IMG/VR virus record: IMGVR_UViG_3300049855_000474
Location: 62,001-126,000 of that record
From: a virus
Length of the DNA: 64,000 nt
Strand: one strand, 5' to 3'
Part shown: positions 20,467 to 52,387 of the stretch, one piece after another
How the letters are laid out: each line of letters begins with the position of its first letter
How positions within the stretch are numbered: the first letter of the stretch is position 1
Position numbers and translations under genes: made by a program
Notes under the pieces: model-generated
Told to the model about the DNA's origin: nothing
What the model saw: the letters and a program-made list of their open reading frames with translations, nothing else
Databases searched by the model: none

Positions 20467-20745
20467 TCAGCTAATACAGAAGTTGGGGCTGTTTTTAATG
20501 GTTTCATATACAGTTGCGAAATCTTTTTGCTCGTGAAGATACTCACAAAGTGCCAAATCTAGAGCAGCTAAGGCTCTGGCTTCCTCGGGGCAATTTTGCT
20601 TGAAAGCAAGCCACTCTTCGGAAGTATCTAAGTTGAAACGTAAGAGATAGTAGCTATTTAAGCAGTTCTCTAGGTACTGTACGGTTATAATTCCAATAGA
20701 GTAATTCTTAGCTAGCAAATCGATTTGATCTACGGTTAGTCTCAT
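20467..20745 (-). CDS. Small unknown protein between nucleotide-metabolism genes
   Basis: A 92-residue mostly helical protein (DQIDLLAKNYSIGIITVQYL, EARALAALDLALCEYLHEQ). It overlaps the reductase-like gene by four bases (ATGA) and is followed by dcd after nine bases, so it is part of that operon. No family recognised. Confidence 0.55.
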   Translation of the reverse strand: MRLTVDQIDLLAKNYSIGIITVQYLENCLNSYYLLRFNLDTSEEWLAFKQNCPEEARALAALDLALCEYLHEQKDFATVYETIKNSPNFCIS

Positions 20746-22043
20746 AATTTCTTCTTCATCGGGGCAGCTGGAATTGTTGAACGTTGCGCATCATAATTAT
20801 AGGAAGGTGGGAGAACTGCTGGGATGGTCAGTTTATCATCAGTGCGCTTACGTTCAATAGCAGTCTGCGATATTTCCAGAGATAAGTCCAGTTTAAACAT
20901 ACCAGAGGTAGAATCAACAGTGACATCCCAATTTGTTATCTTCAGGTCTTTAGAAATCTGATGGATACTAGCAGGGTCGACTGTTTTAGATTCCACAGGA
21001 GGATCCGTGGGAATCCAAGAAGATATTTCTACATCAGGGTTATCGAGATCCACAGTTTGTCCTTGCAGTGGGCGATCTGACCAAAACTGCACAGAGCGAT
21101 GAACCTGATCAGAACTAGATCGATCTACTTCTGAGGCGGTCAGAAAGTAGAGAGGAAGGCAATTGGGAGATGAGAGATTGACACCAAACTGGTCACTATA
21201 ATCCCGAGCGACATTCGCCGCCTCGACACACTCCCCAGATACACCTTTATGTGCCCATAGAAAGGAAGGAAAGGGATCGGATCCGGAACTGGTTCCGGCT
21301 GTAAAACCTGGACTGCCTACAGAACTATGTTGAACTAATACCTCGTTACGAATGCCCCAGTTGGCTATGTCGTTACGAAGGAGTGTACTCGCCATGCTTC
21401 CTCGCGAGGCAAGCCCTAGGTCAAGGCGATCCACAAACAAGGTTTCGGAAGAAATATTTCGATTGCAATCCGAGAATTCTCCACGTTCACGAGCTAAGTG
21501 GATGGATGTTCTATAAGCCCAATGCGAAATACTGAAGAACAGTTCATCAAGGAAAAGCCGGCATAGGTCGTTATTTCCATAAGGGATACCAAGGCGAATC
21601 AGCAATTCAGCCAAGCCAAAAGAACCTAGACTGAGGTGACGTCGAGGATGAGTGCATACGGAATCTAGAAAATGAACAGCTGTTTCTATTACATGCTGCA
21701 GTTCCAGCCACTTCACTTTCTGGCAAACCTCAACAACCTGATGTTCTACCACAGAGGAACTACAGGTAAAAAACGTCTCAGGTCCGAACTTAGAGAGGTT
21801 CAAATAGCCACAGGATTCTTTGGTATCTAGGATATCCTTGGCAGGAAAAAACAAACCACTATCAAGGATTTCCCTATAGAGTGCCTCTTCCGAGGCAAGA
21901 GCCGGCATATCCCAAGTGCACAAACCCCTTGAAAGAGCAGGGTTTACCGCCCAGTCAGAGGAGAAACCCTGGGCTTCAGACCTAGAAGACACTAAAAGTG
22001 ACATAAGTCTGGAGAGATCTTTGTAGCCTAATAAATCAGTCAT
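20742..22043 (-). CDS. Degenerate ribonucleotide reductase-like paralogue
   Basis: About 433 residues from ATG 22043 (the frame is open to GTG 22082 inside the reductase gene). It aligns by eye with the C-terminal half of the neighbouring class II reductase: SCGYLNLSKFG matches SCRLMLVNLYRFV; HLSLGSFGLAELLIRLGIPYG matches GLGITALGDALAALGIRYG; AYRTSIHLARERGEF matches AYRSSVQMAEERGAF; and NWGIRNEVLVQHSSVGSPG lies where the reductase has RNIGLTTTAPAGSVS. The N-terminal half, with the first redox Cys, the GGVG region and the NPCGE radical-Cys motif, is absent. It therefore cannot catalyse reduction by the known mechanism. It may be a regulatory or structural partner of the reductase, or a duplicated copy that took another role. 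Confidence 0.7.
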   Translation of the reverse strand: MTDLLGYKDLSRLMSLLVSSRSEAQGFSSDWAVNPALSRGLCTWDMPALASEEALYREILDSGLFFPAKDILDTKESCGYLNLSKFGPETFFTCSSSVVEHQVVEVCQKVKWLELQHVIETAVHFLDSVCTHPRRHLSLGSFGLAELLIRLGIPYGNNDLCRLFLDELFFSISHWAYRTSIHLARERGEFSDCNRNISSETLFVDRLDLGLASRGSMASTLLRNDIANWGIRNEVLVQHSSVGSPGFTAGTSSGSDPFPSFLWAHKGVSGECVEAANVARDYSDQFGVNLSSPNCLPLYFLTASEVDRSSSDQVHRSVQFWSDRPLQGQTVDLDNPDVEISSWIPTDPPVESKTVDPASIHQISKDLKITNWDVTVDSTSGMFKLDLSLEISQTAIERKRTDDKLTIPAVLPPSYNYDAQRSTIPAAPMKKKL

Positions 22044-22059
22044 AATACTTTCTAAGTTA

Positions 22060-25000
22060 TCAGGAGCACTTAGACGACCCACAGGTCATACAAGTGACAC
22101 AACCCTGCTGATACGACAGCTCGGTGGACTTGCACTCTTTACAGTGCTTTTCTGAAGTAGTTTTAGTTCCATCTGGAATGTAATGCTTGCTGAGCACTCT
22201 GGCGATGACAGTGCTAAAGGACCACATATCGCTGTGTTTGTCTTTACGCAGCTGCTCCACTAGGAACTTTACGGGAACACCATGCCTAAGAGCAAGAGAA
22301 ATCGTACGTGTGAAGGCGCCGTAGATTGGATTATCGAATACCGTGACAATGTCCTTAATGACAAGCTGGTCATCGTCCCCGATGGGGATTTCTAGGTTAT
22401 ACAGAGAAATACCATCTGCATTCTTGCCGTTCTTAACTAGGCGACCTTCTTTGACACGCTTCGGAATCTCTACATTCAAGGAGAGACCGCAGAACAATTC
22501 GTAAGGACGATCATCGAGCCTACCTACTACTACAAGGTAGGACTCGCCCTTAACGTTAGCACGATGTATATCACAAGGAAGAACCTTGGGTCGCTTGGGA
22601 GCATGAGTGTCTACAATAATAATTTCTTTGGCGGCTTCCTCGCTAAACATCACACCATCACGACTACCTTCTCGGTAGATCGTTACGCCCTTACAACCAC
22701 TTTCCCAGCCTCGCATGTAGATCTGCTTGACGGTATCAACGGTGGTTTCCTTTGGAATATTTGTAGTATTCGAAATAGAATGGCAAATCCACTTCTGAGC
22801 TGCCGCCTGGATATCAATCTTTTTGACCCAGTCAATGTCCTCAGAGGTAGCTTTCCAGTAGGGGGATTCCTCAATATTCACATTGCCAGTAACTTCCATC
22901 CACGTCTTTACGCCATGATGGAACACTGTGTAATGCTGCCACTTGTCCCCAAGCTCATCAACGAAATCAATCTTAGCGTCCTGATCGTTAGGATTGTGTT
23001 TCTTCCTTCTAGTATAGGCGAGCTTGAAAACAGGCTCACAACCCGAAGTAGACTGTGTCAAAATAGAAACACTACCCGCAGGGGCTGTTGTAGTTAGCCC
23101 GATGTTGCGTCGTCCATAGAGAAGGTAACGACCTTCAAGTGCCTGGTCTTCAGCCATAATTTGGCGAAGAAAGGGATGATTACGTTCAATTTTGAGATCA
23201 AAGGCAGGAAAAGCACCTCGCTCTTCCGCCATCTGAACCGAGGAACGATAAGCTCCCATAGCAAGAGCCCGGTAGATATCATGGGTAGCTGTTACGGATT
23301 CATCAGAACCATAACGAATACCCAAAGCAGCTAAAGCATCCCCCAGTGCTGTAATACCCAGACCTGTTCTGCGTCCTCGAACAGCAGAGTTTCTGATTTT
23401 ATTCCATAGAGTAACTTCAAGACTCTTGACATCCTCAGGCTCTGGGTCCTGCTCGACTTTAGCAAGAATGCGATCAATGCACTCAAGCTCTAGGTCAATC
23501 ATGTTATCCATAAGACGTTGTGCCTTCTGCACGACACAATCAAACCTAGAGTAATTAAAACGAGCTTTAGACGTAAACGGGTCATCCACAAACCGATACA
23601 AATTGACCAACATTAGCCGGCAGCTGTCATTGGAATTTAATGTGATCTCGCCGCATTGGCGTGACACTGTAAAAAGTGCGGCAGGAGTGGAAAACCCGTC
23701 CAAACTTTCCTCACCAAGAGCCATACAAAGGTTGTGAAAGTTATCTACTGTTCCATTGTAAACATCTTCAGTACCTACATATTCCACACTAACCACCCGA
23801 TGATTGTAGGTGGCAGCAGTAGATTTAACGTCAGCCCAATCACGAAAACCAAATTTAGTTCCAGTACGATATGAAAAACCAAGAGAGTGACAACGAGATT
23901 CCAATTCCTTTTGATAAGGATCTCGACCTAACTCCAAACGAAGTTGAGTAAAAGTATCAAGAATAGCGGTCTTGGATTTTTCAGCTTTAGCTTGATAAGT
24001 GGTGTGTAAAGAAGCCGTTCGATTGACATTAGCAGAAGTTTTACTATTAGCATAGTAATTAGAACAGCTAATAGAGCAAAAGCAGCCTTCACGTTTAGAG
24101 TAGGACGAAACAAAGGAAGAACCACAGTGCTCGCAACAACGCTCAACAGTTACTTCATTATCAATAATGTCTGCAGTATACCCTTGTTCTAGAGCCTTCG
24201 TCAAGGTACGGTGCAGACGTGGGTCTAAGGAAGGATAAGTAATACCACACTCAGTAGCTGCCCAAATTGATAGATCATAGAAAGAGCCGAGAGTAGAACT
24301 TCTCCAACAAGAAAAACTTTGGGGAAGATTATTTTCTTTTGCATACTTGTACCAAATCTTAATGGACGCACGACAACCCAGGCTTCTAGTCAAAAGAATA
24401 ACGTGCTGTCTTATGTCTTCATCAGATACTGTCGCGTAAGCATTCCCGTTATCACTACCGCTAGTAGCCAAGGACATTGTCTTTGAATACTGCGCAAATC
24501 TCTCAGGGTCAGCTTTGATCTTGAAGATAGGATTTAGATCTCCTTTGATACATTCCGCATGAAGCTGATCATAGTCTCTTTTTTGCATAAGATGCAAGTT
24601 TTCTACAGAATTATTGCTAGCGTGGAAATCTGCATGATGTATCACATGACCAGGAGGAACTTTACAATTGTGATGATGCTCCCAAATTAAACGATGCTCT
24701 GTTCGCCACCTAGAAGAGTTACAATCCTTAACCCACCAATAATTTTGAGATTGTGTAGCTTTATAATAAGGCAACGCTTCATGAAAACGAGCGGAAACCC
24801 TATGAGCTATCCATAACGAGTCCCCATTTTTAAGCTCGTCCACTCTCTTTTCTGAGCCGTCACGCAAAATCATTTTATGATTAGGTGTAGCCTTGAACGA
24901 ATGTCCCCCTTCAAGTGTCACCTTGTAAACAGGCTGATTATGTCCTGTTAGTCGTGGGTGTCGCATCTTACGAACAGCAATTTTCCCTGTGGCTGTATCC

Positions 25001-26013
25001 ATACAGTACACAGGAACATCAACCTCCGCCGCTGCAAGGTCCTTAATAGGAACGTAACCACGACCGTCAGCCACAGCAATTTTAGTATCTCCAGTTAAAC
25101 AGGGGTTAGTAGACGTAGATCGGAACTCCGGATACACATCAGCAGGTCCTCTACCAAGGATAGTATCCCAGAAAAGCAAACCAGGTTCTGCACAAACGTG
25201 AGCGGCTTCAATTATTTCAGTCCACAATTCCCGTGCATCAACGTCATTAGAAATCTGGTGAGTAGCTTCCTTCTCTACAGGAAAGCGGAGTTGGACAGTG
25301 TCTCCATGCTTCACTGCATTCATAAATTCGTCGGTCAAACGAATTGAAATATTAGCTCCAGTGACCTTCTTCTTATCACGCTTGATATTGATGAAGGTAC
25401 GAATTTCTGGATGATGCACCGACACGGAAAGCATCAAAGCACCACGGCGCCCACCTTGAGCTACTTCCCGGCAGGTATTACTAAAACGCTCCATAAACAC
25501 ACCGATACCATCTGTGGTACTAGCGGCATTGGCTGTAAGGAGTCCTCGGGGACGAATAGTCGAAATATCAAAACCTACACCGCCACGCCGCTTCATCAGC
25601 TGGGCTTGTTCTTGGTCGGTCTTCATGATTCCACCATAGGAATCATAAGGTGACTCAATTACAAAGCAGTTCGACAATGACTGAAATTGGTGAATGTTTC
25701 CAACGGCAGACATAGGGCTGCCCTGAGGAATCACATCACCCATCCCACGCTGACCTGTGACAGGGTCAAAAGAGGAGAAGAGATCAAAGATCTCTTCGTA
25801 GGACATGGGGTTAGGGTACTTAGATTCTACACGATAGAACTCTCTAGCGAGACGTTCGTGCATAGCAGTAGGGGTAAGCTCTGTATAAGCACCAGAGGGT
25901 AACTTCAGTGCATACTTACCAGCGAATACTTCAGCCGCTAACTGGTCATTATCGAAATAGGCAAGAGACGCATTACGAACGTCGTCGTAGGTCAAGTTCT
26001 CACTCTTTGTCAT
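22060..26013 (-). CDS. nrdJ: Class II (B12-type) ribonucleotide reductase with intein
   Basis: A 1317-residue precursor; removing the 482-residue intein (305-786) leaves 835 residues, a usual length for an NrdJ-type catalytic chain. It reduces ribonucleotides using adenosylcobalamin. Extein motifs: LSNCFVIES (C116, redox Cys), GGVGFDISTIRPRG (144-157), NP|CGEI spanning the intein (radical Cys 787), NDSCRLMLVNL (second redox Cys), GRRTGLGITALGDAL, TTAPAGSVSILTQSTSGCEP, and a C-terminal Cys cluster (CKECKS...CVTCMTCGSSKC) serving as redox/zinc tail. No small radical subunit gene is nearby, consistent with class II. The paralogue, a small gene and dcd follow in the same operon. Confidence 0.9.
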   Translation of the reverse strand: MTKSENLTYDDVRNASLAYFDNDQLAAEVFAGKYALKLPSGAYTELTPTAMHERLAREFYRVESKYPNPMSYEEIFDLFSSFDPVTGQRGMGDVIPQGSPMSAVGNIHQFQSLSNCFVIESPYDSYGGIMKTDQEQAQLMKRRGGVGFDISTIRPRGLLTANAASTTDGIGVFMERFSNTCREVAQGGRRGALMLSVSVHHPEIRTFINIKRDKKKVTGANISIRLTDEFMNAVKHGDTVQLRFPVEKEATHQISNDVDARELWTEIIEAAHVCAEPGLLFWDTILGRGPADVYPEFRSTSTNPCLTGDTKIAVADGRGYVPIKDLAAAEVDVPVYCMDTATGKIAVRKMRHPRLTGHNQPVYKVTLEGGHSFKATPNHKMILRDGSEKRVDELKNGDSLWIAHRVSARFHEALPYYKATQSQNYWWVKDCNSSRWRTEHRLIWEHHHNCKVPPGHVIHHADFHASNNSVENLHLMQKRDYDQLHAECIKGDLNPIFKIKADPERFAQYSKTMSLATSGSDNGNAYATVSDEDIRQHVILLTRSLGCRASIKIWYKYAKENNLPQSFSCWRSSTLGSFYDLSIWAATECGITYPSLDPRLHRTLTKALEQGYTADIIDNEVTVERCCEHCGSSFVSSYSKREGCFCSISCSNYYANSKTSANVNRTASLHTTYQAKAEKSKTAILDTFTQLRLELGRDPYQKELESRCHSLGFSYRTGTKFGFRDWADVKSTAATYNHRVVSVEYVGTEDVYNGTVDNFHNLCMALGEESLDGFSTPAALFTVSRQCGEITLNSNDSCRLMLVNLYRFVDDPFTSKARFNYSRFDCVVQKAQRLMDNMIDLELECIDRILAKVEQDPEPEDVKSLEVTLWNKIRNSAVRGRRTGLGITALGDALAALGIRYGSDESVTATHDIYRALAMGAYRSSVQMAEERGAFPAFDLKIERNHPFLRQIMAEDQALEGRYLLYGRRNIGLTTTAPAGSVSILTQSTSGCEPVFKLAYTRRKKHNPNDQDAKIDFVDELGDKWQHYTVFHHGVKTWMEVTGNVNIEESPYWKATSEDIDWVKKIDIQAAAQKWICHSISNTTNIPKETTVDTVKQIYMRGWESGCKGVTIYREGSRDGVMFSEEAAKEIIIVDTHAPKRPKVLPCDIHRANVKGESYLVVVGRLDDRPYELFCGLSLNVEIPKRVKEGRLVKNGKNADGISLYNLEIPIGDDDQLVIKDIVTVFDNPIYGAFTRTISLALRHGVPVKFLVEQLRKDKHSDMWSFSTVIARVLSKHYIPDGTKTTSEKHCKECKSTELSYQQGCVTCMTCGSSKCS
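23656..25101 (-). mobile_element. Intein with HNH homing endonuclease in nrdJ
   Basis: Intein of 482 residues. Block A CLTGDTKIAV begins at Cys305; block B is HSFKATPNHKMIL; block F is VVSVEYVGTEDVYNGTVDNFHN. The central part has an HNH nuclease (WEHHHNC...GHVIHHADFHASNNSVENLHLM, about 444-476) and a later Cys-rich zinc segment (CCEHCGSSF...CFCSISC). The C-terminal splice junction reads FTVSRQ|CGEI: the last residue is Gln, not Asn, and the penultimate one Arg, not His; some active inteins are known to end in Gln. Insertion lies just before the catalytic radical Cys of the NPCGE motif. Block F to G spacing is longer than usual. Confidence 0.85.
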
Positions 26014-27418: not shown

Positions 27419-28411
27419 TTATACGCTCACATGATTCTTAAGCCAGGAAAGCTGGTCAAGGGCTAAAGAGCCAGGATCCGTGCCTTCAGGCAAGACAATG
27501 TTATCAACATGATTGAAATAAACAGTGCCTTTAGAGTCCCCAACAAGCGAGCCAAAAGATTCTGTGCCTTGAAATAGATTTTTGGCAGCTAGGCGCCCAG
27601 CGCTATCTCCATCCATACAGACATAGACGTTATCAATGCCTAGAGTCATAAGAAGAGTACGTTTGTCATCTGACCAGTTGTTTGTTCCCATCAGGCAAAG
27701 AGCAGGAATCCCGAACTGAACCAATACAAGAGCATCGATTTGACCCTCAACCAAAACAATTGTTTTTGGTCGCATAGCTGCTACGTAATCAAACGGGAAT
27801 AGAATTTTACGAGCCTTAGCCCAGGGTGCGTTGTAATACTTTTGAGTAGTATTATCATCAAGACGCCTACCCGTATATCCCACAAGCTCCCTTTTCTGCA
27901 TAAAAGGGAGCAGGATTCTATTGGTAGTGTATCCATTTCTCAGGTTACGCTGACGCCAGTACTGCGCATTGATGGAAGTTAGAAAAGAAACGGATAGACC
28001 ACGCCAGGGTTGATTCGTATAGTCAGCCCATGGGATAATATTATCTGGTAACTTCCCTGCGTCCGAAGATTCCTCCTCCTCTTCCGCTATAAGCTGAGCA
28101 TGTACATGATCTACCAGATCTATACCACTTGTGTAGCTTTCTTTGGAATAACCGTGACCACCTTTGAGGGTTTGGAGTCCTAGATTCTTAGCAACAGAAT
28201 CCCAGGAACCTTTCCAGTCACAAACCCAACAATGAGCCCGCCTACCGTCTTTAGTAATCTCGAGCTTCATTTTCAGTCCATCTTCTAATGAAGGACAGGC
28301 TGGGTTTAGACAAATAGTAACAAAGTCCTTACGTTTTTCGATAAAACGTCGAGCGGACTTCAGCAACTCCTGCCTAATTATGTGTTCGGCTTGTGGATTA
28401 GGAGTGAACAT
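27419..28411 (-). CDS. DnaG-type DNA primase
   Basis: A 330-residue primase. Zinc-binding N-terminal domain with C34, C39, C61 and C64 (CLNPAC...HCWVCDWKG), a linker, then a DnaG-like catalytic core with TOPRIM motifs TIVLVEGQIDAL (Glu near 218) and VYVCMDGDSAGRLAAKNL (DxD near 265). It would synthesise RNA primers for lagging-strand replication. It is shorter than bacterial DnaG and lacks a helicase-binding C-terminal domain; no replicative helicase is fused. Stop and next start are adjacent. Confidence 0.87.
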   Translation of the reverse strand: MFTPNPQAEHIIRQELLKSARRFIEKRKDFVTICLNPACPSLEDGLKMKLEITKDGRRAHCWVCDWKGSWDSVAKNLGLQTLKGGHGYSKESYTSGIDLVDHVHAQLIAEEEEESSDAGKLPDNIIPWADYTNQPWRGLSVSFLTSINAQYWRQRNLRNGYTTNRILLPFMQKRELVGYTGRRLDDNTTQKYYNAPWAKARKILFPFDYVAAMRPKTIVLVEGQIDALVLVQFGIPALCLMGTNNWSDDKRTLLMTLGIDNVYVCMDGDSAGRLAAKNLFQGTESFGSLVGDSKGTVYFNHVDNIVLPEGTDPGSLALDQLSWLKNHVSV

Positions 28412-28460: not shown

Positions 28461-28922
28461 CTAGACTAGACCATATAAAGCTAAAGGATTACCGTAATCT
28501 CTTGTAGCTCGAACGGGGTCTTGTTGGAATTGTTCTAGAAAAAACTTTTGATTTTGGTTAGGGTTGCCCTCCCAGCTCGGGAGTTCAACTACTAGGTCAT
28601 TACCTACAGAAGTCCAGTTAAAGTCGTACATATAAGCAGGAGCCACCACATAACGATAGGGTCTTTTAGCACTGGACAACCGTTGGTGTCTCATTACCTG
28701 ATGAAAGAAAGGAATATCCTTAGCGAAAATCTCACTCATATGCAAATAGGGCATATAGTAACCTCGGTAAGCATAGGTATGTCCCCAAAGATGTATAAGC
28801 TTAACCAAAGGTTTATCCTTTCTTTGTGCAGACGCTGCGTAAAAGTTAGTTGTATTACCTACAGTACCTGCTACATGTCTCTGTAGAAAAGGGTCCTGCT
28901 CTATAGGTACCCTGACTTCCAT
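28461..28922 (-). CDS. Stand-alone protein resembling a terminase segment
   Basis: A 153-residue protein. Its C-terminal third, LPSWEGNPNQNQKFFLEQF then DPVRATRDYGNPLALYG, parallels the segment of this phage's large terminase subunit that follows the ATPase domain (ATWEASPEYKKEDFRSEEV then VTFWRDFGAQPPLA). There is no Walker A motif and no nuclease domain. It may be a fragment left from recombination, or a short protein that uses the same module. No ribosome-binding sequence precedes the start; a seven-base-pair hairpin lies directly upstream instead. Confidence 0.5.
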   Translation of the reverse strand: MEVRVPIEQDPFLQRHVAGTVGNTTNFYAASAQRKDKPLVKLIHLWGHTYAYRGYYMPYLHMSEIFAKDIPFFHQVMRHQRLSSAKRPYRYVVAPAYMYDFNWTSVGNDLVVELPSWEGNPNQNQKFFLEQFQQDPVRATRDYGNPLALYGLV

Positions 28923-29262: not shown

Positions 29263-29991
29263 TTAGAGCTCCAGTTCCAATTCATCAAGAGTGAGACTTG
29301 TCATAGCAAATTGAGAAGCCCAGGCATCACGTAGTTTAGACCCATCGTGAAGTGGCGGGTTTGATTGACTAACTCGAAAAGTTGCTGCCCATGTGACACT
29401 AGCAGGTTTTTGCGCGTCCTCAGTTACTGTAATAGGACTTTCGGGCTCAAAGAAACCACGAAGTAGTATTGTAGGATAAAGAAGACTGTGATACACAATA
29501 TTTACGAAGTTTGGTCTCCCACTAGAAAGAATTTTAGGCTCATCCAGAAGAGAGAAAAAATCGTAGTAGTCTAAAAGACCAGGAGGAAGAAAGATAAGAG
29601 AAGCTGTGCCATCAGCCCGAACAGCTTCCCTTACAGGCATGATATTACCAGTCTGGAAGGTAAAGGATACAGAAGGGTCATCAAAGAAAGTAGTGCGCTT
29701 ATTATCCAACCAATAGTGAGCAATATAACCAGTCCTAGTCTGCTGGGTCACACCACGCTGCTGGAAAGTCCAAGTAGTATTCTGGGGACCGGACCAAAAC
29801 AGAATATACTTACCGCGATCACCAAGCGTGACTTGCTGATCGGTAGTAATTATCATGGGTATAAATTCACGAGAAACACGTTGACCACGAGCGAGCCTTG
29901 CAGACTCTATCTCGGAAGTACGATCCGAAAAAGCCCCCAAGGAGGTTAATTGCTGTAGGATCCTGTCAGAGTTGATTACTTCAGTACCCAT
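29263..29991 (-). CDS. Putative tail or baseplate structural protein
   Basis: About 242 residues from ATG 29991, which has GAGG eight bases upstream. Contains strand-rich segments typical of phage tail proteins: YILFWSGPQNTTWTFQQRG, GYIAHYWLDN, and RGFFEPESPITVTEDAQK followed by SVTWAATFRVSQSNPPL. The N-terminus is helical. The pattern is that of a tail-completion or baseplate protein, but no precise family is recognised. Confidence 0.62.
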   Translation of the reverse strand: MGTEVINSDRILQQLTSLGAFSDRTSEIESARLARGQRVSREFIPMIITTDQQVTLGDRGKYILFWSGPQNTTWTFQQRGVTQQTRTGYIAHYWLDNKRTTFFDDPSVSFTFQTGNIMPVREAVRADGTASLIFLPPGLLDYYDFFSLLDEPKILSSGRPNFVNIVYHSLLYPTILLRGFFEPESPITVTEDAQKPASVTWAATFRVSQSNPPLHDGSKLRDAWASQFAMTSLTLDELELEL

Positions 29992-30051
29992 CAGCAAAAC
30001 CTCAATAGGAAAAGGAAATAAGACTGTGTTTGAGGCTATAACAGCTACGGA

Positions 30052-30771
30052 TTAATCTTCGTCGGAGTCACCCGACACATCGAGGCTCTGACCACGACGA
30101 GCAGCAAATTCCTGCTTAGCGTACTTCTCTACAAGACCCTGGCTATTAGCCACGATGTAGGCAAGATCTGCCTCACTAAGGTCGAGCCCCTCAAGCTCGC
30201 TACGAACTTCTCGAGCCTTCTTTTCCCTTGTAGTAAGAGCTGCGACAAGGACCTTGACACGAGCCTGGACATCGCCATCCTCATCATTGTCAGCAATCCC
30301 GACATCTTGAGGATCAACAGGCTGCGACAACGAAACGCCAGGGTTCTCCCCAACCACGATAGCATCGTGCTGCTTATGGTAGAGCAAGGCATCGTCCTCG
30401 GGACGACCAGTCTCTCGCATCTTTCGAATCTCAGGATTACCGTAATCCAGATACTGATAGGCGCGATCGACATCCTCACGAGCGCGAGGATTAGTCTCGT
30501 AATAAGCCTCCGCCTCAGCAGGAGGCACGATCTCAAGAACGCGACGCATGATCAAATCACGGAGGTCACGACTGTTCCGGAGAGTATCGGGAGTAACACG
30601 ATCCGAAAGGCAGACAGGGTGCTTGACACCAGGGATATCAAGCTTCTGAACGCGACCGGAGCGATCCGTCATCGTGAGGATGATAAGTCCTCGCGGCTTG
30701 TGGACGTTACGTACCCAAATTGGCTTATTTTCATCTAGAATTTGATCGATGTGACGAATGCTATAACTCAT
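30052..30771 (-). CDS. Probable abundant virion protein
   Basis: A 239-residue protein with codon use rich in C-ending codons, like the capsid gene and unlike its neighbours, which suggests high expression. Sequence: beta-rich N-terminus (IWVRNVHKPRGLIILTMTDRS), a central LRNSRDLRDLIMRRVLEIVPP, helical C-terminus and an acidic end (DVSGDSDED). It is translationally coupled to a 46-residue ORF upstream (ATGA overlap). No family recognised. Confidence 0.65.
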   Translation of the reverse strand: MSYSIRHIDQILDENKPIWVRNVHKPRGLIILTMTDRSGRVQKLDIPGVKHPVCLSDRVTPDTLRNSRDLRDLIMRRVLEIVPPAEAEAYYETNPRAREDVDRAYQYLDYGNPEIRKMRETGRPEDDALLYHKQHDAIVVGENPGVSLSQPVDPQDVGIADNDEDGDVQARVKVLVAALTTREKKAREVRSELEGLDLSEADLAYIVANSQGLVEKYAKQEFAARRGQSLDVSGDSDED

Positions 30772-30908
30772 GAATTAGTCTCCTTAATTAAGTCTTTATC
30801 GGAAGTTTCTTTAGTAACTTCTTCCTTAGAAGACTCTTCCTTCAAATCAGGCTGTTGTTTATCGGTCTCAACAATCTTTTCTTCTCGAACTACACCATAC
30901 CGTATCAT
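30768..30908 (-). CDS. 46-residue charged small ORF, coupled to the next gene
   Basis: ATG 30908 opens a 46-codon frame whose TGA overlaps the ATG of the following gene (ATGA). The product is mostly Glu, Lys, Thr and Ser (EEKIVETDK, EESSKEEVTKETSDKD). The exact four-base overlap, the rule for this genome, and a GGTGAG sequence upstream argue that it is translated. It may serve as a leader that couples translation. Confidence 0.5.
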   Translation of the reverse strand: MIRYGVVREEKIVETDKQQPDLKEESSKEEVTKETSDKDLIKETNS

Positions 30909-31056
30909 ACACTACCACTCACCTGCTCTCATCGAGCTTTCTGTTTCATAGACATGCTGTTAGCAGTGGCCTCAACAGACTGTCGCCGGGGCGGAACTCG
31001 GCGAAGATACTAATTACTTTGTAAGTTGCTATCGGCAGTTGCCTAGTAACACAGAT
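30909..31056. other. Non-coding gap with GC-rich hairpin
   Basis: Nearly 150 bases without an open frame. A CGCCG/CGGCG stem (about 30986-31005) can form on either strand. There is no T-run on the minus strand, so it is a weak terminator candidate at best; a promoter for the highly expressed downstream gene may lie here. Confidence 0.3.
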
Positions 31057-31377
31057 TTACATCTGTGATAACGAATCTGCGATAAGAAAAGCAATTGTTT
31101 TACTTGTCTTTTCTACATCTATAACGCAAAGGAGCTTCTTCTCCCCAGAAACAGGCTTCCAATGAACCAAGTACTCAAAACGAATATCAAATTTCTGCAG
31201 GGTCAGCGATCCTATCTTCGTCTCTGTAATCCTGGAAAATACATCAAACTCTACAGGAGACTTAAAGAGAATCAGCTTACCTATACTGTCTTTTACAAGT
31301 TTGTGGTTAATAAGCGACTCTATGTCGGGAAGCTTAGAAGCTAAATGCTCCTCAGGAGTTCCACGACAACAAGACAT
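31057..31377 (-). CDS. Unknown protein coupled to the tubulin-like gene
   Basis: From ATG 31377, one base after the FtsZ-like stop (TAGAATG), 106 residues. MSCCRGTPEEHLASKLPDIES is followed by a beta-rich region (LILFKSPVEFDVFSRI, RFEYLVHWKPVSGEKKLLCVIDV). Tight coupling to the tubulin-like gene makes an accessory role possible, but nothing in the sequence shows it. Confidence 0.55.
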   Translation of the reverse strand: MSCCRGTPEEHLASKLPDIESLINHKLVKDSIGKLILFKSPVEFDVFSRITETKIGSLTLQKFDIRFEYLVHWKPVSGEKKLLCVIDVEKTSKTIAFLIADSLSQM

Positions 31378-31378
31378 T

Positions 31379-32650
31379 CTATTTAGTATCCACGTTAGCA
31401 CTTAGCTGTTTCAACTCCTGCAATCGGGCAGCTGGGGGCTCCAGACCCGAAATCATAGTAAAGACCTTCATCCCAGAGTTAGCACTTTCATAAACACCGT
31501 TATGAAGAGTAATTCCTTCATTTCCAATGATACGTCCTAAGCTGTGGAAAGCTGAATCAAGATGTTCCATAGGAAGCTCGGCAAGAACATCATCGTGAGC
31601 TACAATAATAGCCCCTGCCATATCAGCCTTGGTTAGATCAAAACCATCAGCCAGAAGAGTACCTGCCAAGTTCTGACGAATAGCTTTACTGATATCTTCC
31701 TTGGAGTCCCATTTCTCCACAGAAGTCATACCGAAGATAAGAATGCCGTTCCGGAGAATAGAACGAAAATCAGAACGGTCAAAAGTACTGTACTCGCTAT
31801 TCTGAGCTGCCAGAATATTGAATGTATGAAGCACAGAAGCGAAATTCTGATTGGCAACCTTCCAGAAGTTCTTCACGGAAAGCCCAGGCAAAATAGAATG
31901 AATCTTAGCATTATCAACAAGAATTAAAGTCTTGATATCACCACGGTCACAAAGCTCGATAGCTTCTTCCAAAGCTTTGAGCGCATTTGCCTGGACGCGT
32001 GCACCTTCTGAGCGTTTTGGCATAGTCATAATAACGCCAACTTTTCGCTCAGTAGTCGACTCAATCTGAGTCGTACTCAAATATTCCTTCAACGCCCGTA
32101 AAGCAACAGACCAAGAGCCTGTACCAGAACCACCACCAGCACCAACACACAAAAAGGCTTGCTCTACATCCTGACCATACACCCGGAGAAGCATCTCCAT
32201 AATGTCTTCAAATGATTCCTCAGCCGCAAGTCTTCCTTGTTCTGGGTCTTTTCCAGCACCACCGCGATCTTTACCAATAACCAATTTATTTGGAATTGAA
32301 AGACTTGCAAGGTCCTGGTCTGTCGTATTCAGAGCACAGACGCGAACGTAGCCAAGGTCATGAAAAGCTTGAGCAACACGACCACCGCCCTGACCAACGC
32401 CAAGAAAAGCCATCTTCAAGGCAGAAACAAATTGATCTTTAATCACAACTGTATCAAACTTAGGCTGTTCAGCTGCTTTAAACTCGGGTAATTCGATTGC
32501 CATAGGTGACCTCTTCGTGGAAGATTGGGGAACAGTCTGTTCTAATTTTACAGGAACAATAGTACTTTCGGCATAAGAGGGAACTACTTTATAGTTCTCT
32601 ATGCCAGGTAAAGGCGTTCCAAAACGCAATGTCCCTTTTACATTTGTCAA
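31379..32650 (-). CDS. FtsZ/tubulin-like GTPase
   Basis: A 423-residue protein with tubulin-superfamily GTP-binding motifs: FLGVGQGGGRVAQAF (82-96), the signature loop GAGGGSGTGS (170-179), and a T7-type synergy loop FDRSDFRSI with the two Asp expected for GTP hydrolysis on polymerisation. Organisation is closer to FtsZ than to TubZ or PhuZ by eye. Phage members build filaments that centre or move phage DNA or the phage nucleus. The frame is open to TTG 32650; ATG 32503 is preceded by a much better site (GAGG) and gives a 374-residue protein without the 49-residue extension. It lies in the tail gene region. Confidence 0.85.
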   Translation of the reverse strand: MTNVKGTLRFGTPLPGIENYKVVPSYAESTIVPVKLEQTVPQSSTKRSPMAIELPEFKAAEQPKFDTVVIKDQFVSALKMAFLGVGQGGGRVAQAFHDLGYVRVCALNTTDQDLASLSIPNKLVIGKDRGGAGKDPEQGRLAAEESFEDIMEMLLRVYGQDVEQAFLCVGAGGGSGTGSWSVALRALKEYLSTTQIESTTERKVGVIMTMPKRSEGARVQANALKALEEAIELCDRGDIKTLILVDNAKIHSILPGLSVKNFWKVANQNFASVLHTFNILAAQNSEYSTFDRSDFRSILRNGILIFGMTSVEKWDSKEDISKAIRQNLAGTLLADGFDLTKADMAGAIIVAHDDVLAELPMEHLDSAFHSLGRIIGNEGITLHNGVYESANSGMKVFTMISGLEPPAARLQELKQLSANVDTK

Positions 32651-32660
32651 GAAACAAATC

Positions 32661-33143
32661 TCAAGATTTTTTCAAAAAATTGTACAAATCAGCAGGAGTA
32701 ATAGAGGAGGGTTCCAGATCAGCAGAACCCGGATAATCGCCTGCTTTAAGCATAATTACTATAGCTTCGGAGCAAAAAATGGCTTTAGTATTGAATGGAT
32801 TACTCCATTTAAGCCGCAACCAACGACCTAACAAAACAAAAATCGTACCAAAAACACCAAAGTAGTCATACCTACGACCTAACCACTGAGTGGCTTTCTG
32901 GATAGCTGATTCTTTTAAATTATCAAGTGGGATAATGTATACAATTTTATGTTTCTTATCAAAAGAAGACAAAGTCACCAGTTGAAAGCCACCAGGCACA
33001 GCTTCAAGAACCATATCTATACCAAGAAAAGAATTACGAAGAATGAGGAATGCGTGACTAACAGTGCTACGGGTAAAAAACCGTATAACTTTCGAACCTA
33101 TATTTCGACTTCGAGAAAAGCCAATACTTACCTGGACTGTCAT
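32661..33143 (-). CDS. YiiX/C92-like permuted papain-fold hydrolase
   Basis: From ATG 33143 (GGAG eight bases upstream) 160 residues. H30 in VSHAFLIL, E47 in MVLEAVPGGF, LGRRYDYFGVFG and C124 in IFCSEAI give the circularly permuted NlpC/P60 pattern (His first, Cys late) of YiiX/YaeF-type proteins, which include amidases and endopeptidases. A hydrophobic stretch at 94-108 may contact membrane. It may act on peptidoglycan cross-links or lipid-linked substrates; the neighbouring membrane protein could be a partner. Catalytic residues are inferred from the family pattern. Confidence 0.72.
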   Translation of the reverse strand: MTVQVSIGFSRSRNIGSKVIRFFTRSTVSHAFLILRNSFLGIDMVLEAVPGGFQLVTLSSFDKKHKIVYIIPLDNLKESAIQKATQWLGRRYDYFGVFGTIFVLLGRWLRLKWSNPFNTKAIFCSEAIVIMLKAGDYPGSADLEPSSITPADLYNFLKKS

Positions 33144-33144
33144 T

Positions 33145-33453
33145 TTAAGTTCTCCAATGATCCAAAGCGTACCAAATAAACAAGACACCAACGACGCAAG
33201 TCAAAGGGTCACTAACCCACGCATTCAGCCAGGACTCGGGTGTAAGCCAAATGTCAGGCTTCCGAGGCTCCATAATTCTCTCAAAAACTTCCCAAGCGAA
33301 AGCTAGGAACAAACAGAGACCCATAGAAAACCAGCGGTTCCACTGGAAGGACCACGTGATAGAGCCAAAATAGATCCAAAAGCTGATGTGGACAATAGTC
33401 CAAACATCAACAAAAGTTCGACCAGTCTTAATAGGAAAAAGCCAATCCATCAT
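33145..33453 (-). CDS. Small integral membrane protein
   Basis: A 102-residue protein with three hydrophobic segments (about 16-36, 39-58 and 82-98: VWTIVHISFWIYFG, FSMGLCLFLAFAWEVF, TCVVGVLFIWYAL) and a conserved-looking loop WEVFERIMEPRKPD...WLNAWVSDP. It directly precedes the papain-like hydrolase. A holin-like role is possible but size and loop pattern do not prove it. Confidence 0.6.
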   Translation of the reverse strand: MMDWLFPIKTGRTFVDVWTIVHISFWIYFGSITWSFQWNRWFSMGLCLFLAFAWEVFERIMEPRKPDIWLTPESWLNAWVSDPLTCVVGVLFIWYALDHWRT

Positions 33454-34574
33454 TCACTCTCCGATCTACAATAAAAGGTTGCGGTAGCCATATAACCAAC
33501 AAAAGGTTCATGGTGCTCTAAATATACACGAAGCTCCATACCTTTTGCACTAGATAACGAGACGCTACCCAGGTAGTCCCAATCAAAAGTAGTTACAGCA
33601 TGATGCTGTGAACGCCAGTTGTCAGGATCGCCTAGGGCTGGGTAGGAAGGATACGAACGAAAAGCATCATTATGAAAGTCAGCCATGGTTTTATACGCCA
33701 ATCGCTGTAGGCGAATCTTATAACCAATACCATAAGGTATTCCATACGCTGTCATTTGGGCTGATGTCAGGAAGAAGTCTGCGATACCCCAAGCCTCAAA
33801 TAAAACAGTGTCTCTTGGATCTACATCAGAAGAGAATTGTACCTCAGCAATATCGATCAAAAGTTGTTTACCAGCCAAAGGCTTAACTGTATATATACTA
33901 TTTATGGCGTAGTGGTACGTTACTTTGATAACATCAGCAACATCTTTTACTGATTCAAAAATAACTTTACCAAGTTCGTAATTAATCGTATAATCTCCAC
34001 CTGTCCCGTAATGAGGATCCTGTTCAGTCTTCACGACATCATTAACTTTCACTACAACACGAAGGGAGTGTCCGCCGGAACCTAGCAAGTCGTCTTCTTG
34101 TGTTATTCTTCCATGATAATTATCTATCACCCGGTTCTGGGCTAGGTTATAAGTGATATGATCTCCGGAGTCTGTAGCTACTTCGTCTACAATACGTGTC
34201 GCCGTCTGATACCAAGTACAAGGGTCGGTAAAATCATAAGAAAAGAAATTTGTACGTACATTCTGAGATTTCTCTATAGCGATACGTTGGCGACCATCGG
34301 AGGTTTTTGCTGGATTAACAAGCAACTGACCGACACCCACGATATAAGCGATAGCCTCATCTTCACTAACGATCTGGATAGATGTACGATCCTCTAACCA
34401 AGCGGTAAAATCAGTAGTATCCACATCGGATACGTAAGTTACATAAAAGTACTCCAAATTTCCGGCATACAGATGAAAAGTTTGGTCATCAACAGGTTGT
34501 TTATAAACTACCCAGTGATGATTAGCGTTCAAAACTAGCTTCCAGGTAGTATAAGGTATGTATAATCTACGCAT
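33450..34574 (-). CDS. Putative tail/baseplate structural protein
   Basis: A 374-residue beta-rich protein (VYKQPVDDQTFHLYAGNLEYFYV, YELGKVIFESVKDVADVIKVTYHYA, ISIYTVKPLAGKQL-like strands). Such strand-rich proteins next to fibre genes are usually baseplate or fibre-attachment components. No enzymatic motif and no family recognised. Overlaps the membrane-protein start by four bases. Confidence 0.6.
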   Translation of the reverse strand: MRRLYIPYTTWKLVLNANHHWVVYKQPVDDQTFHLYAGNLEYFYVTYVSDVDTTDFTAWLEDRTSIQIVSEDEAIAYIVGVGQLLVNPAKTSDGRQRIAIEKSQNVRTNFFSYDFTDPCTWYQTATRIVDEVATDSGDHITYNLAQNRVIDNYHGRITQEDDLLGSGGHSLRVVVKVNDVVKTEQDPHYGTGGDYTINYELGKVIFESVKDVADVIKVTYHYAINSIYTVKPLAGKQLLIDIAEVQFSSDVDPRDTVLFEAWGIADFFLTSAQMTAYGIPYGIGYKIRLQRLAYKTMADFHNDAFRSYPSYPALGDPDNWRSQHHAVTTFDWDYLGSVSLSSAKGMELRVYLEHHEPFVGYMATATFYCRSESE

Positions 34575-34580
34575 TTTGCC

Positions 34581-37568
34581 TCAAGAATCGTAGTAATCAA
34601 AGGAACCACGGAAAATATTGGAAGTTCCAGAAACTGGAGTTACATACATGACAATTCTAGCAGGACCAGGTACCTTAATGTATGATCCGTAGTTACGAGG
34701 AACTTGGCTGGACTGACCATGCAACGTCAAGAAATCACCAACCTGCTTTTCTGGCTGGTTTGCCACTGGTAGACTACGAACTTTCAGAACAAAAACAGAG
34801 CCGTTACCAGCTACAGTTGAGTTACTACCAATTAAAGTACCTGTTACGCTGCATACTAGACCTGAAGCCACATAATGATGTGCCCAAAAAGTTTGATTAT
34901 TGGTGGCTGCTATGGTGCCTACAGCGGTCCCACCACCAGCAGCTCCTGTAAATAGAGTAATAATCCCAACATTGGATCCGGTACTACCAACAGTTAAGAC
35001 CTCCATTTTTTCAATAAAACATTTCGTAGTAGTAACTAGATTAACAGCAGTTGTACCGTTGAGGGTTACATCTTCAGTGCCTACAGTGGTACCTGTAGCA
35101 TCCATCCAAGTAATTCTAACCTGGCGAGCGCCCGTACCAGCAGAAGAATCGTTTGCACTCGAGGAAACGATAGAACCGGTAAAATTAGCTGCAGGCTCTG
35201 TATAAGAAGTACGCCTAACAGCAGCTTGAGCTGTGGAAGCTAGGGAAGGGTCTCCAAACGCAATTCCTGGAATAGAATTTTCCGGAGCAGAGGTGACGGG
35301 GATAGCTAACTGATTAGGAGACAAAACAACTACAAGAGCCTTATCTGAAGCAACTGGAGCCGTACTTGCAGGTTTGACCGATACAGGACCAGTAGTGCCA
35401 TCAGACAACTGATTGAAAATCGAACGGGCAACGCTATCACCCGTAGGCAATGTGTTGGTTCCGTCAGTTATACGAACAGGCCAGTACCCGGACAAAGAAG
35501 CAGCGGTGCCTTGGTTCGCGGTAACCGTACCGTCCACAGTAAGAGATCCACCATTGTCCGTAACGGGTATAGCAGTCTGATTACTAGCAAGTACAACAGG
35601 AGAACTTGCCGCCATAACAGCCTGACCAGCAGATAAGGTCTTAGTATTAATAGCAGACAGGGTTGTTTCGGTTGCAGCTCCTGATGGAAGCGGTAACGAC
35701 GCAGCAGAAATTGGGATAGTATTATTAGGACTGATAGCAACTACAAGAGCGGGGTCCGCTGCTACTGCTGCTGTAGAGGCAGCTTTGATCGTAGCTGTAT
35801 TGGTGCCATCTGTGATCTTTTCAAAGATAGCCCTACCAACAGCATCCCCCGTTGGCATTGTATTAGTGCCATCTGTTACTCTAACAGGCCAATACCCAGC
35901 AAGAGAAGCGGCAGTGCCCTGAGTAGCAGTAACAGTACCATCTACAGTAAGCGATCCGCCGTTATCAGTAACAGGAATAGCAGTCTGATTACTAGCAATA
36001 ACAACAGGGGAGGAGGATGCCATAGCTGCTTGACCCGCAGCTAAAGTCTTCGTATTAATAGAAGATAATGTAGTTTCCGTAGCCGCACCTGTTGGAAGCG
36101 GAAGAGAAGCCGCAGAAACAGGCTGTGTTACACTGGAACCATCAACTCGAAGCCCGCCAGCGGTATTTAAAGAAAGTGAACTTAGTTGTCCAGTTGTATA
36201 AGAGGGAGCCGCCGTAGTGACAGAGCCACCAATAGAAGTTGCTTGAGCTGGTGGAGAGGAACCCGTAGCACTAACGCTAGGATTACTAGCCACAATTGGA
36301 GTATTAGGAGAAATAGCAACAACAAGAGCGGTATCAGCCGCCACCGCTGCTGTAGAAGCTGATTTTACCGTAGCTGTATTAGTACCATCATTAATCTTGG
36401 TTGTTTGATTACCAAGAGTAGTTTGGTTCGCAGAAGTTGCAGCACCTGTAGGCAGAGGAAGGGATGTCGCTGAAATTGGTTGAGTTGTTGTCCCGGTTGG
36501 GTCTACTCTTAAAGGATCTGACGAAGTACCAGCTTCAACAGAACCGCCAGAGGCACTTTTACGAAGAATTGTACCTAAAATAAACTGAGTACCTGCACCA
36601 GAATCCGCATCAAATACCCTAGCGGCCTGTAGATTAGTTCCATCAGAACCACCAACCTGAGTAGAAGAGGTTGGAATAGATGTATTATTGGATCCAACGG
36701 AAGGGTTTGTTGCAGTAATTGAGCTGTTAGGACTAATTGCTACAACAAGAGCAGGGTCTGACGCGACAGGAGCAGTACTAGCCGCCTTAACCGCTGCGAT
36801 ATTTGTTCCATCCGTAATCTTCTCAAAGAGTGCTCGACCAGCAGTATCTCCAGTTGGCATTGTATTAGTGCCATCTGTTACTCTAACAGGCCAATACCCG
36901 GACAAAGAAGCAGCTGTACCTTGAATAGTTGTAACTGTACCGTCAATAGTAAGCGATCCGCCATTGTCTGTAACTGAGATTGCGGTCTGATTACTCGCAA
37001 TTACAACAGGATAACTCGCAGACATAACAGCTTGACCCGAAACGAGCGTCTTTGTATCAATAGAAGCAAGCGTTGTCTGCGTCGCTGCGCCTGCTGGAAG
37101 CGGTAAAGATGTAACACTAACAGGCTGGGTAGTGGTTCCAGTAGGATCAATTCGAAGGGGGTGCGTATTATCCCCCAAGAAATCTGTATTATTAGGACTA
37201 AGTATTTTGCCGTTAGCATCGACAGTACCGCTGGTAACAGTGACCGTTCCGCTTGTAACATTGACATTCTGTGGGTCATCTGGTAAAGCTATACCAGAAT
37301 GATCACCTAAAATACTCCCACCAGAAGCTGGTGAATTAGGAGTTTGCGATGACAAACCATCTAAAGTATTCTTCTCTCCGCTAGCAAGAGGATCTTTGAA
37401 CCAAATTGTAAGACTATCATCCCCTGGGGCTGTGATACCACCAGCAACGTAATCAATTTGAGTTACAATAGAACTTAATTCTATTTCACGACGTAACCTA
37501 GCAACACTAACTAATCCAGAAGGGACATCGGTGCTGATTGTATATACGTAACTAGTAGGCGTAGGCAT
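34581..37568 (-). CDS. Repetitive tail fibre-like protein
   Basis: A 995-residue Ser/Thr/Ala-rich protein of tandem modules. Recurrent units include DGTN(T/I)A(T/A)VKAAST then A(D/P)ALVVAISPN (four copies, last diverged), SLTVDGTVTATQGTAASL then GYWPVRVTDGTNTMPTG (three copies), and LPLPxGAATxTTL then TLxAGQAxM plus PVVIASNQTAI (several copies). The N-terminal 50 residues (SYVYTISTDVPSGLVSVARL) and the last 250 residues (IMDATGTTVG-like strands, YYDS end) are not repeated. This is the architecture of a long trimeric tail fibre or a tail-associated adhesin. Confidence 0.72.
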   Translation of the reverse strand: MPTPTSYVYTISTDVPSGLVSVARLRREIELSSIVTQIDYVAGGITAPGDDSLTIWFKDPLASGEKNTLDGLSSQTPNSPASGGSILGDHSGIALPDDPQNVNVTSGTVTVTSGTVDANGKILSPNNTDFLGDNTHPLRIDPTGTTTQPVSVTSLPLPAGAATQTTLASIDTKTLVSGQAVMSASYPVVIASNQTAISVTDNGGSLTIDGTVTTIQGTAASLSGYWPVRVTDGTNTMPTGDTAGRALFEKITDGTNIAAVKAASTAPVASDPALVVAISPNSSITATNPSVGSNNTSIPTSSTQVGGSDGTNLQAARVFDADSGAGTQFILGTILRKSASGGSVEAGTSSDPLRVDPTGTTTQPISATSLPLPTGAATSANQTTLGNQTTKINDGTNTATVKSASTAAVAADTALVVAISPNTPIVASNPSVSATGSSPPAQATSIGGSVTTAAPSYTTGQLSSLSLNTAGGLRVDGSSVTQPVSAASLPLPTGAATETTLSSINTKTLAAGQAAMASSSPVVIASNQTAIPVTDNGGSLTVDGTVTATQGTAASLAGYWPVRVTDGTNTMPTGDAVGRAIFEKITDGTNTATIKAASTAAVAADPALVVAISPNNTIPISAASLPLPSGAATETTLSAINTKTLSAGQAVMAASSPVVLASNQTAIPVTDNGGSLTVDGTVTANQGTAASLSGYWPVRITDGTNTLPTGDSVARSIFNQLSDGTTGPVSVKPASTAPVASDKALVVVLSPNQLAIPVTSAPENSIPGIAFGDPSLASTAQAAVRRTSYTEPAANFTGSIVSSSANDSSAGTGARQVRITWMDATGTTVGTEDVTLNGTTAVNLVTTTKCFIEKMEVLTVGSTGSNVGIITLFTGAAGGGTAVGTIAATNNQTFWAHHYVASGLVCSVTGTLIGSNSTVAGNGSVFVLKVRSLPVANQPEKQVGDFLTLHGQSSQVPRNYGSYIKVPGPARIVMYVTPVSGTSNIFRGSFDYYDS
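35280..37130 (-). repeat. Tandem long repeats in the fibre gene
   Basis: Units of roughly 300-450 bases recur three to four times with diverged sequence, each coding for the same order of modules (LPLPTGAAT, ASNQTAI, DGTV, YWPVRVTDGTN, VVAISPN). Homologous recombination among them could change fibre length. Confidence 0.65.
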
Positions 37569-51199: not shown

Positions 51200-52387
51200 A
51201 TGAAATTTCTGAATTTCGACAAAACAATCGACAAAAAGGTCAAAGAAGAGGATTCTAAGAAAGAAGATGCATCTAAGAAAGATGAATCTGAAGAGTCTAA
51301 GGATAAAGGCAGAGAAAAAGACGAAAGTTCTGGGGAAGAGGTTAAAGGAGAGCCTGCTAACCAGACTTACAAGACCGATAGCCCCACGGACCTCAGTAGT
51401 GATGCTTGTCTGCCTTGGGGCACTTCTCCTTATAATCTCAAGCCTGGTCATGGACAAGCTCTTGTGGATGTACTTCGGCGTGTTGCTTCAGATGTTCGTG
51501 AGCTTGCTGGATTAAAGATTGCTAAAGGTTTGGAGGATGGTCCTGCGCCAGCTTCCAGTGAAGTCAATTGGGATCATGCTTTCTCTGTCATTGAGGACAC
51601 TTTCAAGAAGAACAATCTTCGGCTAGTGAACTTCGAAGATCGGTCACAGCCTGGGTCTATTCCATACTACATCAAGAATACATCAGACGGAATTCTATTT
51701 TGGGTTACCCCTAGACCCCACACGGATAAACCAATATACGAAGCCATCAAAGCATTGAAGGCAGCGGGTATTGTTGCTCTACGACGTGAAAGTGGCATTT
51801 TGATAATGGCGGCTATGCCCACCCAAGACGGTCACCCTGCTGATGAGGTGGCACGATTTAGCAAAGGAACGCATCTAGAGACCAAAGATCAGCGCGACGG
51901 TACCTGGCATAAAGTAGAGATCGAAGGTGTAACTATTCGTTACAAGTTCGATCCTACAAGCAATAGAATGGAAGTCCACTGCCATAGGGGAGACAAGGGT
52001 CTCATCAATACAAAAGCAGAGTTCTTATTGAATCATGCCAACTCTCGCCAATTGGCGAAGGTACTCAAGTACCAGGCGGTGCGATTCACCAAGATGTTTG
52101 ATCCAGCTACCTACGGGCTTCACGCTGAGATGGATCCTTTCCGCTTAAAGAAGCATGTGCTGATTTACTGCGGCAAGGGGAAAACACTAGTGATTGGACC
52201 AGACGACCAGGCGTTTCTAGTTACTTCAAAGGGTGAATATCCTCTATGCAAGGAAGAGGGGCGAGTTGCTCTCAACCCAAACCTAACCTTTGTAAAGCTT
52301 CAGGATATTAAAACCTTGAAGTTCGTCCATGGGGACATTTGGGTTAAGTTCGGACATCTATTACAGAAACGCGGGTTGCTTGTCTAA
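51200..52387 (+). CDS. Unknown protein with charged N-terminus before terminase
   Basis: A 395-residue protein with a GGGGAG site. The first 60 residues are a Lys/Glu/Asp/Ser-rich disordered tract (KKVKEEDSKKEDASKKDE). The remainder is globular: LRRVASDVRELAGLKIAKGL, SVIEDTFKKNNLRLVNFED, GILFWVTPRPH, YEAIKALKAAGIVALRRESG, and a C-terminal beta region (HVLIYCGKGKTLVIGPDDQ). No catalytic motif. It overlaps the terminase start, so it is translationally coupled and may join packaging or portal assembly. Confidence 0.6.
   Translation: MKFLNFDKTIDKKVKEEDSKKEDASKKDESEESKDKGREKDESSGEEVKGEPANQTYKTDSPTDLSSDACLPWGTSPYNLKPGHGQALVDVLRRVASDVRELAGLKIAKGLEDGPAPASSEVNWDHAFSVIEDTFKKNNLRLVNFEDRSQPGSIPYYIKNTSDGILFWVTPRPHTDKPIYEAIKALKAAGIVALRRESGILIMAAMPTQDGHPADEVARFSKGTHLETKDQRDGTWHKVEIEGVTIRYKFDPTSNRMEVHCHRGDKGLINTKAEFLLNHANSRQLAKVLKYQAVRFTKMFDPATYGLHAEMDPFRLKKHVLIYCGKGKTLVIGPDDQAFLVTSKGEYPLCKEEGRVALNPNLTFVKLQDIKTLKFVHGDIWVKFGHLLQKRGLLV

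Follow-up and report, generated by a model that had tools for sequence, protein, structure and literature searches.

What kind of tubulin is encoded at this locus, and what would it do for a phage? The window (the whole stretch of DNA analysed, 64,000 bases) was taken from a virus record of 153,375 bases, of which it spans 62001-126000, and carries a gene for a GTPase of the tubulin/FtsZ superfamily. Work on phage tubulins has dealt almost entirely with PhuZ, which makes the spindle in jumbo phages that form a nucleus, and with TubZ, which acts in partition of the plasmid kind. Reviews recognise two phage tubulins, PhuZ and TubZ (PMC7824862, PMC12908238, PMC13282480), and in a survey of marine jumbo phages tubulin occurred only together with the shell, in the phiKZ group (PMC9123017).

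The gene and its catalytic elements are located in the window as follows.
31379..32650, minus strand: tubulin/FtsZ-superfamily GTPase, 423 aa from TTG 32650 (PF00091, FtsZ structures, AlphaFold)
32378..32395, minus strand: nucleotide-binding loop T1 GQGGGR, residues 86-91 (G84, G86, Q87, G88 and G89 invariant in 41 members)
32114..32137, minus strand: tubulin signature or T4 loop GGGSGTGS, residues 172-179 (G172-G174, G176 and G178 invariant in 41 members)
31769..31786, minus strand: T7 loop TFDRSD with the catalytic Asp-x-x-Asp, residues 289-294 (D291 invariant and D294 nearly invariant in 41 members)

The protein scored above the curated cut-off of the Pfam family Tubulin (PF00091; 1.1e-17) and matched FtsZ crystal structures at 6e-20 in a single-sequence search (best: A. 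aeolicus FtsZ), so that its identity is far beyond chance. The AlphaFold model (pLDDT 85.6) showed the tubulin two-domain fold with central H7. The first-pass annotation had described a phage-encoded FtsZ/tubulin GTPase that is catalytically intact by sequence, and this description holds: GQGGGR, GGGSGTGS and the Asp-x-x-Asp of the T7 loop are all present. It had named loss of the GTP-binding residues in homologues as evidence to the contrary; across 41 aligned homologues GxGQGG, GGGxGxG, the DN of T6 and the T7 Asp were invariant. Judged from sequence and model, the GTP-binding domain and the T7 loop are complete, and GTP hydrolysis is predicted to be possible at the contact between two stacked subunits.

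There is no Shine-Dalgarno sequence upstream of TTG 32650, an AAGAGGT lies 6 nt before the in-frame ATG 32503 (residue 50), and residues 1-50 were disordered in the AlphaFold model. For these reasons the true start is probably ATG 32503, giving a protein of 374 aa which begins with MAIELPEF.

Inteins favour conserved active sites. The GTPases of two relatives, L072 and L073, the latter 66-69% identical to the window protein in matched segments, carry inserts of 345/346 aa directly before TFDRAD of the T7 loop. The insert has Cys1, TPDH (block B) and a terminal ...VYVTGN directly before T, and it splits the conserved site cleanly and in frame. Pfam and NCBIfam gave no intein label for it; from its sequence blocks we call it an intein, and its position supports the functional importance of the T7 loop. 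These two genes (L072 7539-10202 and L073 7452-10073) also encode an extra N-terminal segment of about 115 residues, which was found only in these two family members.

No close relatives of the GTPase were found among the cultured phages of the collection searched, in which the best true matches were TubZ-like plasmid proteins at 24-28% identity, and a single-sequence search of viral contigs with the window GTPase gave no relatives. The first relatives, with 35-58% identity, were picked up when 2.9 million viral contigs were scanned for a DNA pattern encoding GVGQGGGR and read with tblastn, and their alignment (A1), used as query, gave 69 viral loci. Run against 84,980 prokaryote species, this query recovered a single family member (L138), the rest being cellular FtsZ at 26-34%. 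The "bacterial" contig of L138 is probably viral because its flanks match the viral group. With 69 viral loci and otherwise one viral-looking contig and host FtsZs, the family is virus-specific as far as sequence distribution tells. It is wide-spread in large tailed phages, and each of 19 family records had exactly one tubulin-superfamily gene. Some apparent matches were rejected: the phage "matches" L066-L068 (human faecal scaffolds, Acinetobacter MD-2021a) are bacterial FtsZ on host DNA, and L139-L150 (verrucomicrobial and archaeal genomes) are cellular FtsZ and not family members.

The best viral structure match was A0A6J5RW92, "FtsZ Cell division GTPase" of an uncultured Caudovirales phage (3.6e-33, 29% identity, query TM 0.76), which very probably belongs to the same family. 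It was found only as a UniProt entry, auto-named FtsZ, with no study of it, and a search of the open-access literature found no description of the family.

A small frame immediately follows the GTPase gene.
31057..31377, minus strand: 106-aa frame from the ORF reading, with ATG 31377 one base after the GTPase stop (31381-31379)

An overlapping GTG 31401 would extend this frame to 114 aa. Its position is as the first-pass annotation had given it; the coupling to the GTPase proposed there is not borne out, as no relatives of the 106-aa gene were detected and it was absent beside every GTPase homologue. It was rejected as a GTPase partner on this ground and is probably lineage-specific.

To which tubulin is the family related? 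It had first been judged closer to FtsZ by eye, and the single-sequence search agrees with this, but TubZ came out nearest by family profile, by tree and by fold search alike. The profile found plasmid RepX/TubZ first (RepX 4ei7, 2e-32), then FtsZ (9e-25), CetZ and c-st TubZ, with no PhuZ among the best 60 matches. The fold search of the AlphaFold model in the PDB gave TubZ 2xka as best and CetZ2 4b45 as second, then FtsZ, with E about 1e-23, and the PhuZ fold match in a viral structure library was much weaker (7e-13). The phylogeny with PhuZ, TubZ and FtsZ that the first-pass annotation had proposed was run as a maximum-likelihood tree of 40 rows. In it the family forms its own clade (99/96), sister (98/94) to plasmid and phage TubZ, which is itself monophyletic (100/97). 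Grouping with PhuZ was rejected (AU p=0.008), as was grouping with FtsZ (AU p=0.0216). A larger tree with all rows arranged the groups alike, with long branches lowering the support of its deep nodes, and the tree was rebuilt with fewer rows. The sole CetZ in the 40-row tree sat on a long branch outside the clade of the family and TubZ (98/94); haloarchaeal CetZ has, like the window GTPase, a T1 loop of the GQ type.

The PhuZ group phrog_4733 hit the window GTPase only at E=0.1, in line with the earlier opinion that it is a GTPase other than PhuZ, and the NCBIfam FtsZ equivalog gave 87.4 bits vs a cut-off of 295.2. By sequence comparison, then, the window GTPase is neither PhuZ nor FtsZ, and is sister to TubZ, not inside it. 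TubZ/RepX of Bacillus-type plasmids, gp138 of phage G and c-st TubZ form the sister clade, which gave the best profile and fold matches, and a weak match to the TubZ-like C-terminal domain was also seen in the window GTPase. PhuZ of phiKZ-like phages (Chimalliviridae) is alike in being a phage-encoded tubulin-superfamily GTPase, in single copy, of large myoviruses.

The two ends of the protein distinguish it from these systems.
32480..32503, minus strand: N-terminal tail motif MAIELPEF, residues 50-57, in the place that [VI]D[IL]PDIP[LIM]P, the motif of the family, takes in relatives, about 30 residues before the GTPase core
31382..31441, minus strand: short C-terminus, residues 404-423, with one 11-residue helix (407-417) (AlphaFold, family comparison)

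In TubZ and PhuZ a long C-terminal helix and tail help the protein to polymerise and to recruit cofactors; PhuZ, whose C-terminus has an H11/acidic knuckle, is not extended significantly at its N-terminus (PMC3678025). The long H11 helix or tail of TubZ or PhuZ is absent from the C-terminus of the window GTPase, and so are the C-terminal linker and conserved C-terminal peptide of FtsZ. The family has a median of 15 residues past the last core strand (about 20 in the window), and 246-252 residues after the signature vs 298-319 in TubZ, which makes it 50-70 shorter.

At the other end, family tails have a median of 73 residues (42 to over 100) and are usually acidic. They carry a motif, typically DIPDIPLP or EIPDIDLE with the consensus DIPDIPLP, which nearly always lies 29-33 residues before the GxGQGG core despite the variable tail length. 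A loose form was found in 36 of 46 tails (shuffled tails: mean 2.6, maximum 7 in 500 trials) and a strict form in 23 of 46 (shuffled mean 0.2), figures that show presence rather than calibrated significance, the patterns having been drawn from the same sequences and related rows being non-independent. MAIELPEF of the window is a divergent form at the equivalent place and fails the strict pattern. The branch of L117, L126, L128, L129 and L131 is without the motif; a conserved segment resembling IANVAA-LNPAAHQQA precedes the core in most of these proteins, and their genes have glycosyltransferase-like neighbours. In AlphaFold monomers the motif was neither ordered nor docked (pLDDT about 49-66). 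Docking in cis is unsupported by these models, and a motif disordered in the monomer may fit binding in trans.

We somewhat favour the reading, drawn from this anatomy, that the window GTPase is a GTP-driven cytomotive filament which positions phage DNA or capsids. As sister to TubZ, it would form dynamic filaments powered by GTP in the manner of TubZ and PhuZ, and would, like them, hydrolyse GTP where two subunits meet. The N-terminal motif would replace the C-terminal tail of TubZ and PhuZ and would bind in trans, its target being the neighbouring subunit of the filament or else a phage cargo.

The same motif could be read in another way. The family DIPDIP is reminiscent of the DIP in LDIPAF, the peptide at the C-terminus of E. 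coli FtsZ, and phages are known to target FtsZ. The protein might copolymerise or compete with host FtsZ, its own superfamily, and block the Z-ring, which would give a larger cell and more phage; in one variant the tail, with its DIP, could act as a mimic of the C-terminal peptide through which FtsZ binds FtsA/ZipA. PMC13423816 deals with a complex between FtsZ and a phage protein. Bacterial and archaeal FtsZ also share with the family the signature, the T7 loop and a short linear motif on a disordered tail, but the FtsZ tail is at the opposite end, with a C-terminal linker and peptide which the window family lacks, and the family is virus-only. A division inhibitor is opposed by the tree, which places the family with TubZ and rejects FtsZ (p=0.02), and by the FtsZ score of 87 against 295. 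A decoy should track its host, whereas the motif is N-terminal, keeps a constant spacing of 30 residues and is shared by phages that differ widely, and an inhibitor would have no need of an invariant T7 loop. We regard this role as unlikely.

If the protein is instead a filament, do the phages also have the partners of known systems? The nuclear-shell homologue (chimallin, phrog_4795) that the first-pass annotation had suggested looking for was absent from all 19 family records, i.e. the 153-kb record of the window and 18 others, a weak negative since the records may be incomplete; the phiKZ control matched at 1e-232. RNA polymerase beta subunit is a feature of phiKZ-like phages. It had no match in the window record and in 10 of 12 other family records, and the records of L116 and L117 had a strong beta-subunit gene (8e-51 and 2e-55). 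These results bear on the idea of a PhuZ-type spindle for a phage nucleus with a shell protein that has diverged beyond recognition. In favour of the idea, no tubulin of lytic phages other than PhuZ is, to our knowledge, well studied, and the window comes from a large phage with a terminase whose nearest relatives are those of other jumbo myoviruses. PhuZ, however, forms a separate clade and has chimallin as its partner, and against such a spindle stand the rejected PhuZ grouping (p=0.008), the missing PhuZ-like C-terminal tail, the lack of chimallin in 19 records and that of the beta subunit in 11 of 13. A spindle of this kind is very unlikely.

TubZ works with an upstream TubR and tubC repeats, neither of which was found with the window GTPase, which has the N-terminal motif tail instead. 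All eight TubZ references (8/8) had a gene of 98-147 aa directly upstream. The TubR profile gave no matching frame in 70 family loci, a weak negative because TubRs are very divergent. Around the window gene (29800-33600) there was no array of tubC-like direct repeats or iterons, and no tyrosine integrase was found in 13 family records, which are possibly incomplete. Bacillus phage G offers a comparison (L167 1192-2619): its gp138 (FtsZ-like) groups with TubZ, and the 98-aa gp137 lies upstream in the TubR position, suggesting that gp137/gp138 are a TubZR pair. Partition of the phage genome like a plasmid during pseudolysogeny, by a type III-like TubZRC system, would be in keeping with the sister clade, and the c-st phage, in which partition is by TubZ (cited in PMC7824862), is a precedent. 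The absence of a TubR-like match, of iterons beside the gene, of an integrase and of the long C-terminal helix or tail makes it quite unlikely.

Three neighbouring genes of the window GTPase could be assigned.
32661..33191, minus strand: permuted papain-like amidase of the YaeF/YiiX type, not TubR (phrog_1128, 6e-23)
33450..34574, minus strand: 374-aa probable tail protein (phrog_807, tail, 0.0056)
27419..28411, minus strand: Toprim primase, downstream of the GTPase; a homologue lies beside the GTPase and a DnaB helicase in another family branch

For the amidase, NCBIfam YaeF (5e-8) and Pfam C92 (0.0013) were both below cut-off. Further upstream, 34581-37568 encodes a 995-aa protein with visibly repeated tail-fibre-like segments, which is common to L072. 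The gene had been described as lying among tail genes. This holds for the upstream side, weakly in the window (phrog_807, 0.0056) and better in relatives: a homologue (9e-49) of the probable tail protein is also just upstream of the GTPase in L073, and in the near relatives L070 and L071 the GTPase directly follows a gp6-like baseplate wedge gene. It does not hold downstream, where the 106-aa orphan, unknown genes and the Toprim primase follow.

Elsewhere in the window, a 153-aa frame (28461-28922) matched part of the terminase large subunit weakly (7e-4), the main copy being at 52329-54362. An adenosylcobalamin-dependent ribonucleotide reductase of the NrdJ type (22060-26013) is split by an HNH-containing intein, and a 446-aa frame overlapping this gene (20742-22082) contains part of another RNR barrel domain, either a duplicate that has diverged or a remnant. 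A phage-encoded type IA DNA topoisomerase is at 62091-63899.

Other branches have other neighbours. At about 23 loci the GTPase adjoins the terminase large subunit together with a protein of about 650 aa that has no annotation and is, by position, perhaps the portal; at seven it is flanked by a UvsX-like recombinase on one side and by DnaB helicase, primase and exonuclease on the other. It precedes a glycosyltransferase at eight loci, in most of which it comes after a small protein whose acidic tip looks SSB-like. Family GTPases have no universal neighbour, and the gene follows replication, packaging or particle-assembly modules in different phages. A non-filament role, such as that of a virion- or baseplate-associated GTPase, would suit the branch of the window, where the gene comes after baseplate or tail genes, but elsewhere in the family its neighbours are genes for replication or packaging. 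The T7 loop is needed only for hydrolysis between subunits, and its invariance also argues against this role, which we consider highly improbable.

We return to the filament, which may position or gather replicating phage DNA and/or capsids. This cargo is proposed from the consistent placement of the gene in modules for packaging, replication or the baseplate, and since the context varies between branches, no single cargo is implied. Both of the nearest functional models are organisers of DNA or virions: DNA is moved by TubZ, and PhuZ brings DNA to the centre and transports capsids (PMC4244570, PMC12908238). DNA positioning by the window GTPase is plausible. Only tentatively do we suggest a third kind of phage cytoskeleton, a TubZ-sister GTPase filament common in large tailed phages without a recognisable shell, which would polymerise or hold its cargo by a short N-terminal motif of the DIPDIPLP type in place of a C-terminal tail and would organise replicating DNA and capsids in open cytoplasm.

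On sequence grounds the window GTPase represents a widespread family, previously undescribed in the open literature, which is related to TubZ rather than PhuZ. It means that a cytoskeleton may also be built by phages in which no nucleus shell is known, and a virus-only clade without chimallin, TubR or C-terminal tail would untie the infection cytoskeleton from the phage nucleus. The T7-loop intein and the N-terminal motif are concrete handles on mechanism, and the family makes the role of a tubulin in a nucleus-less phage directly testable.
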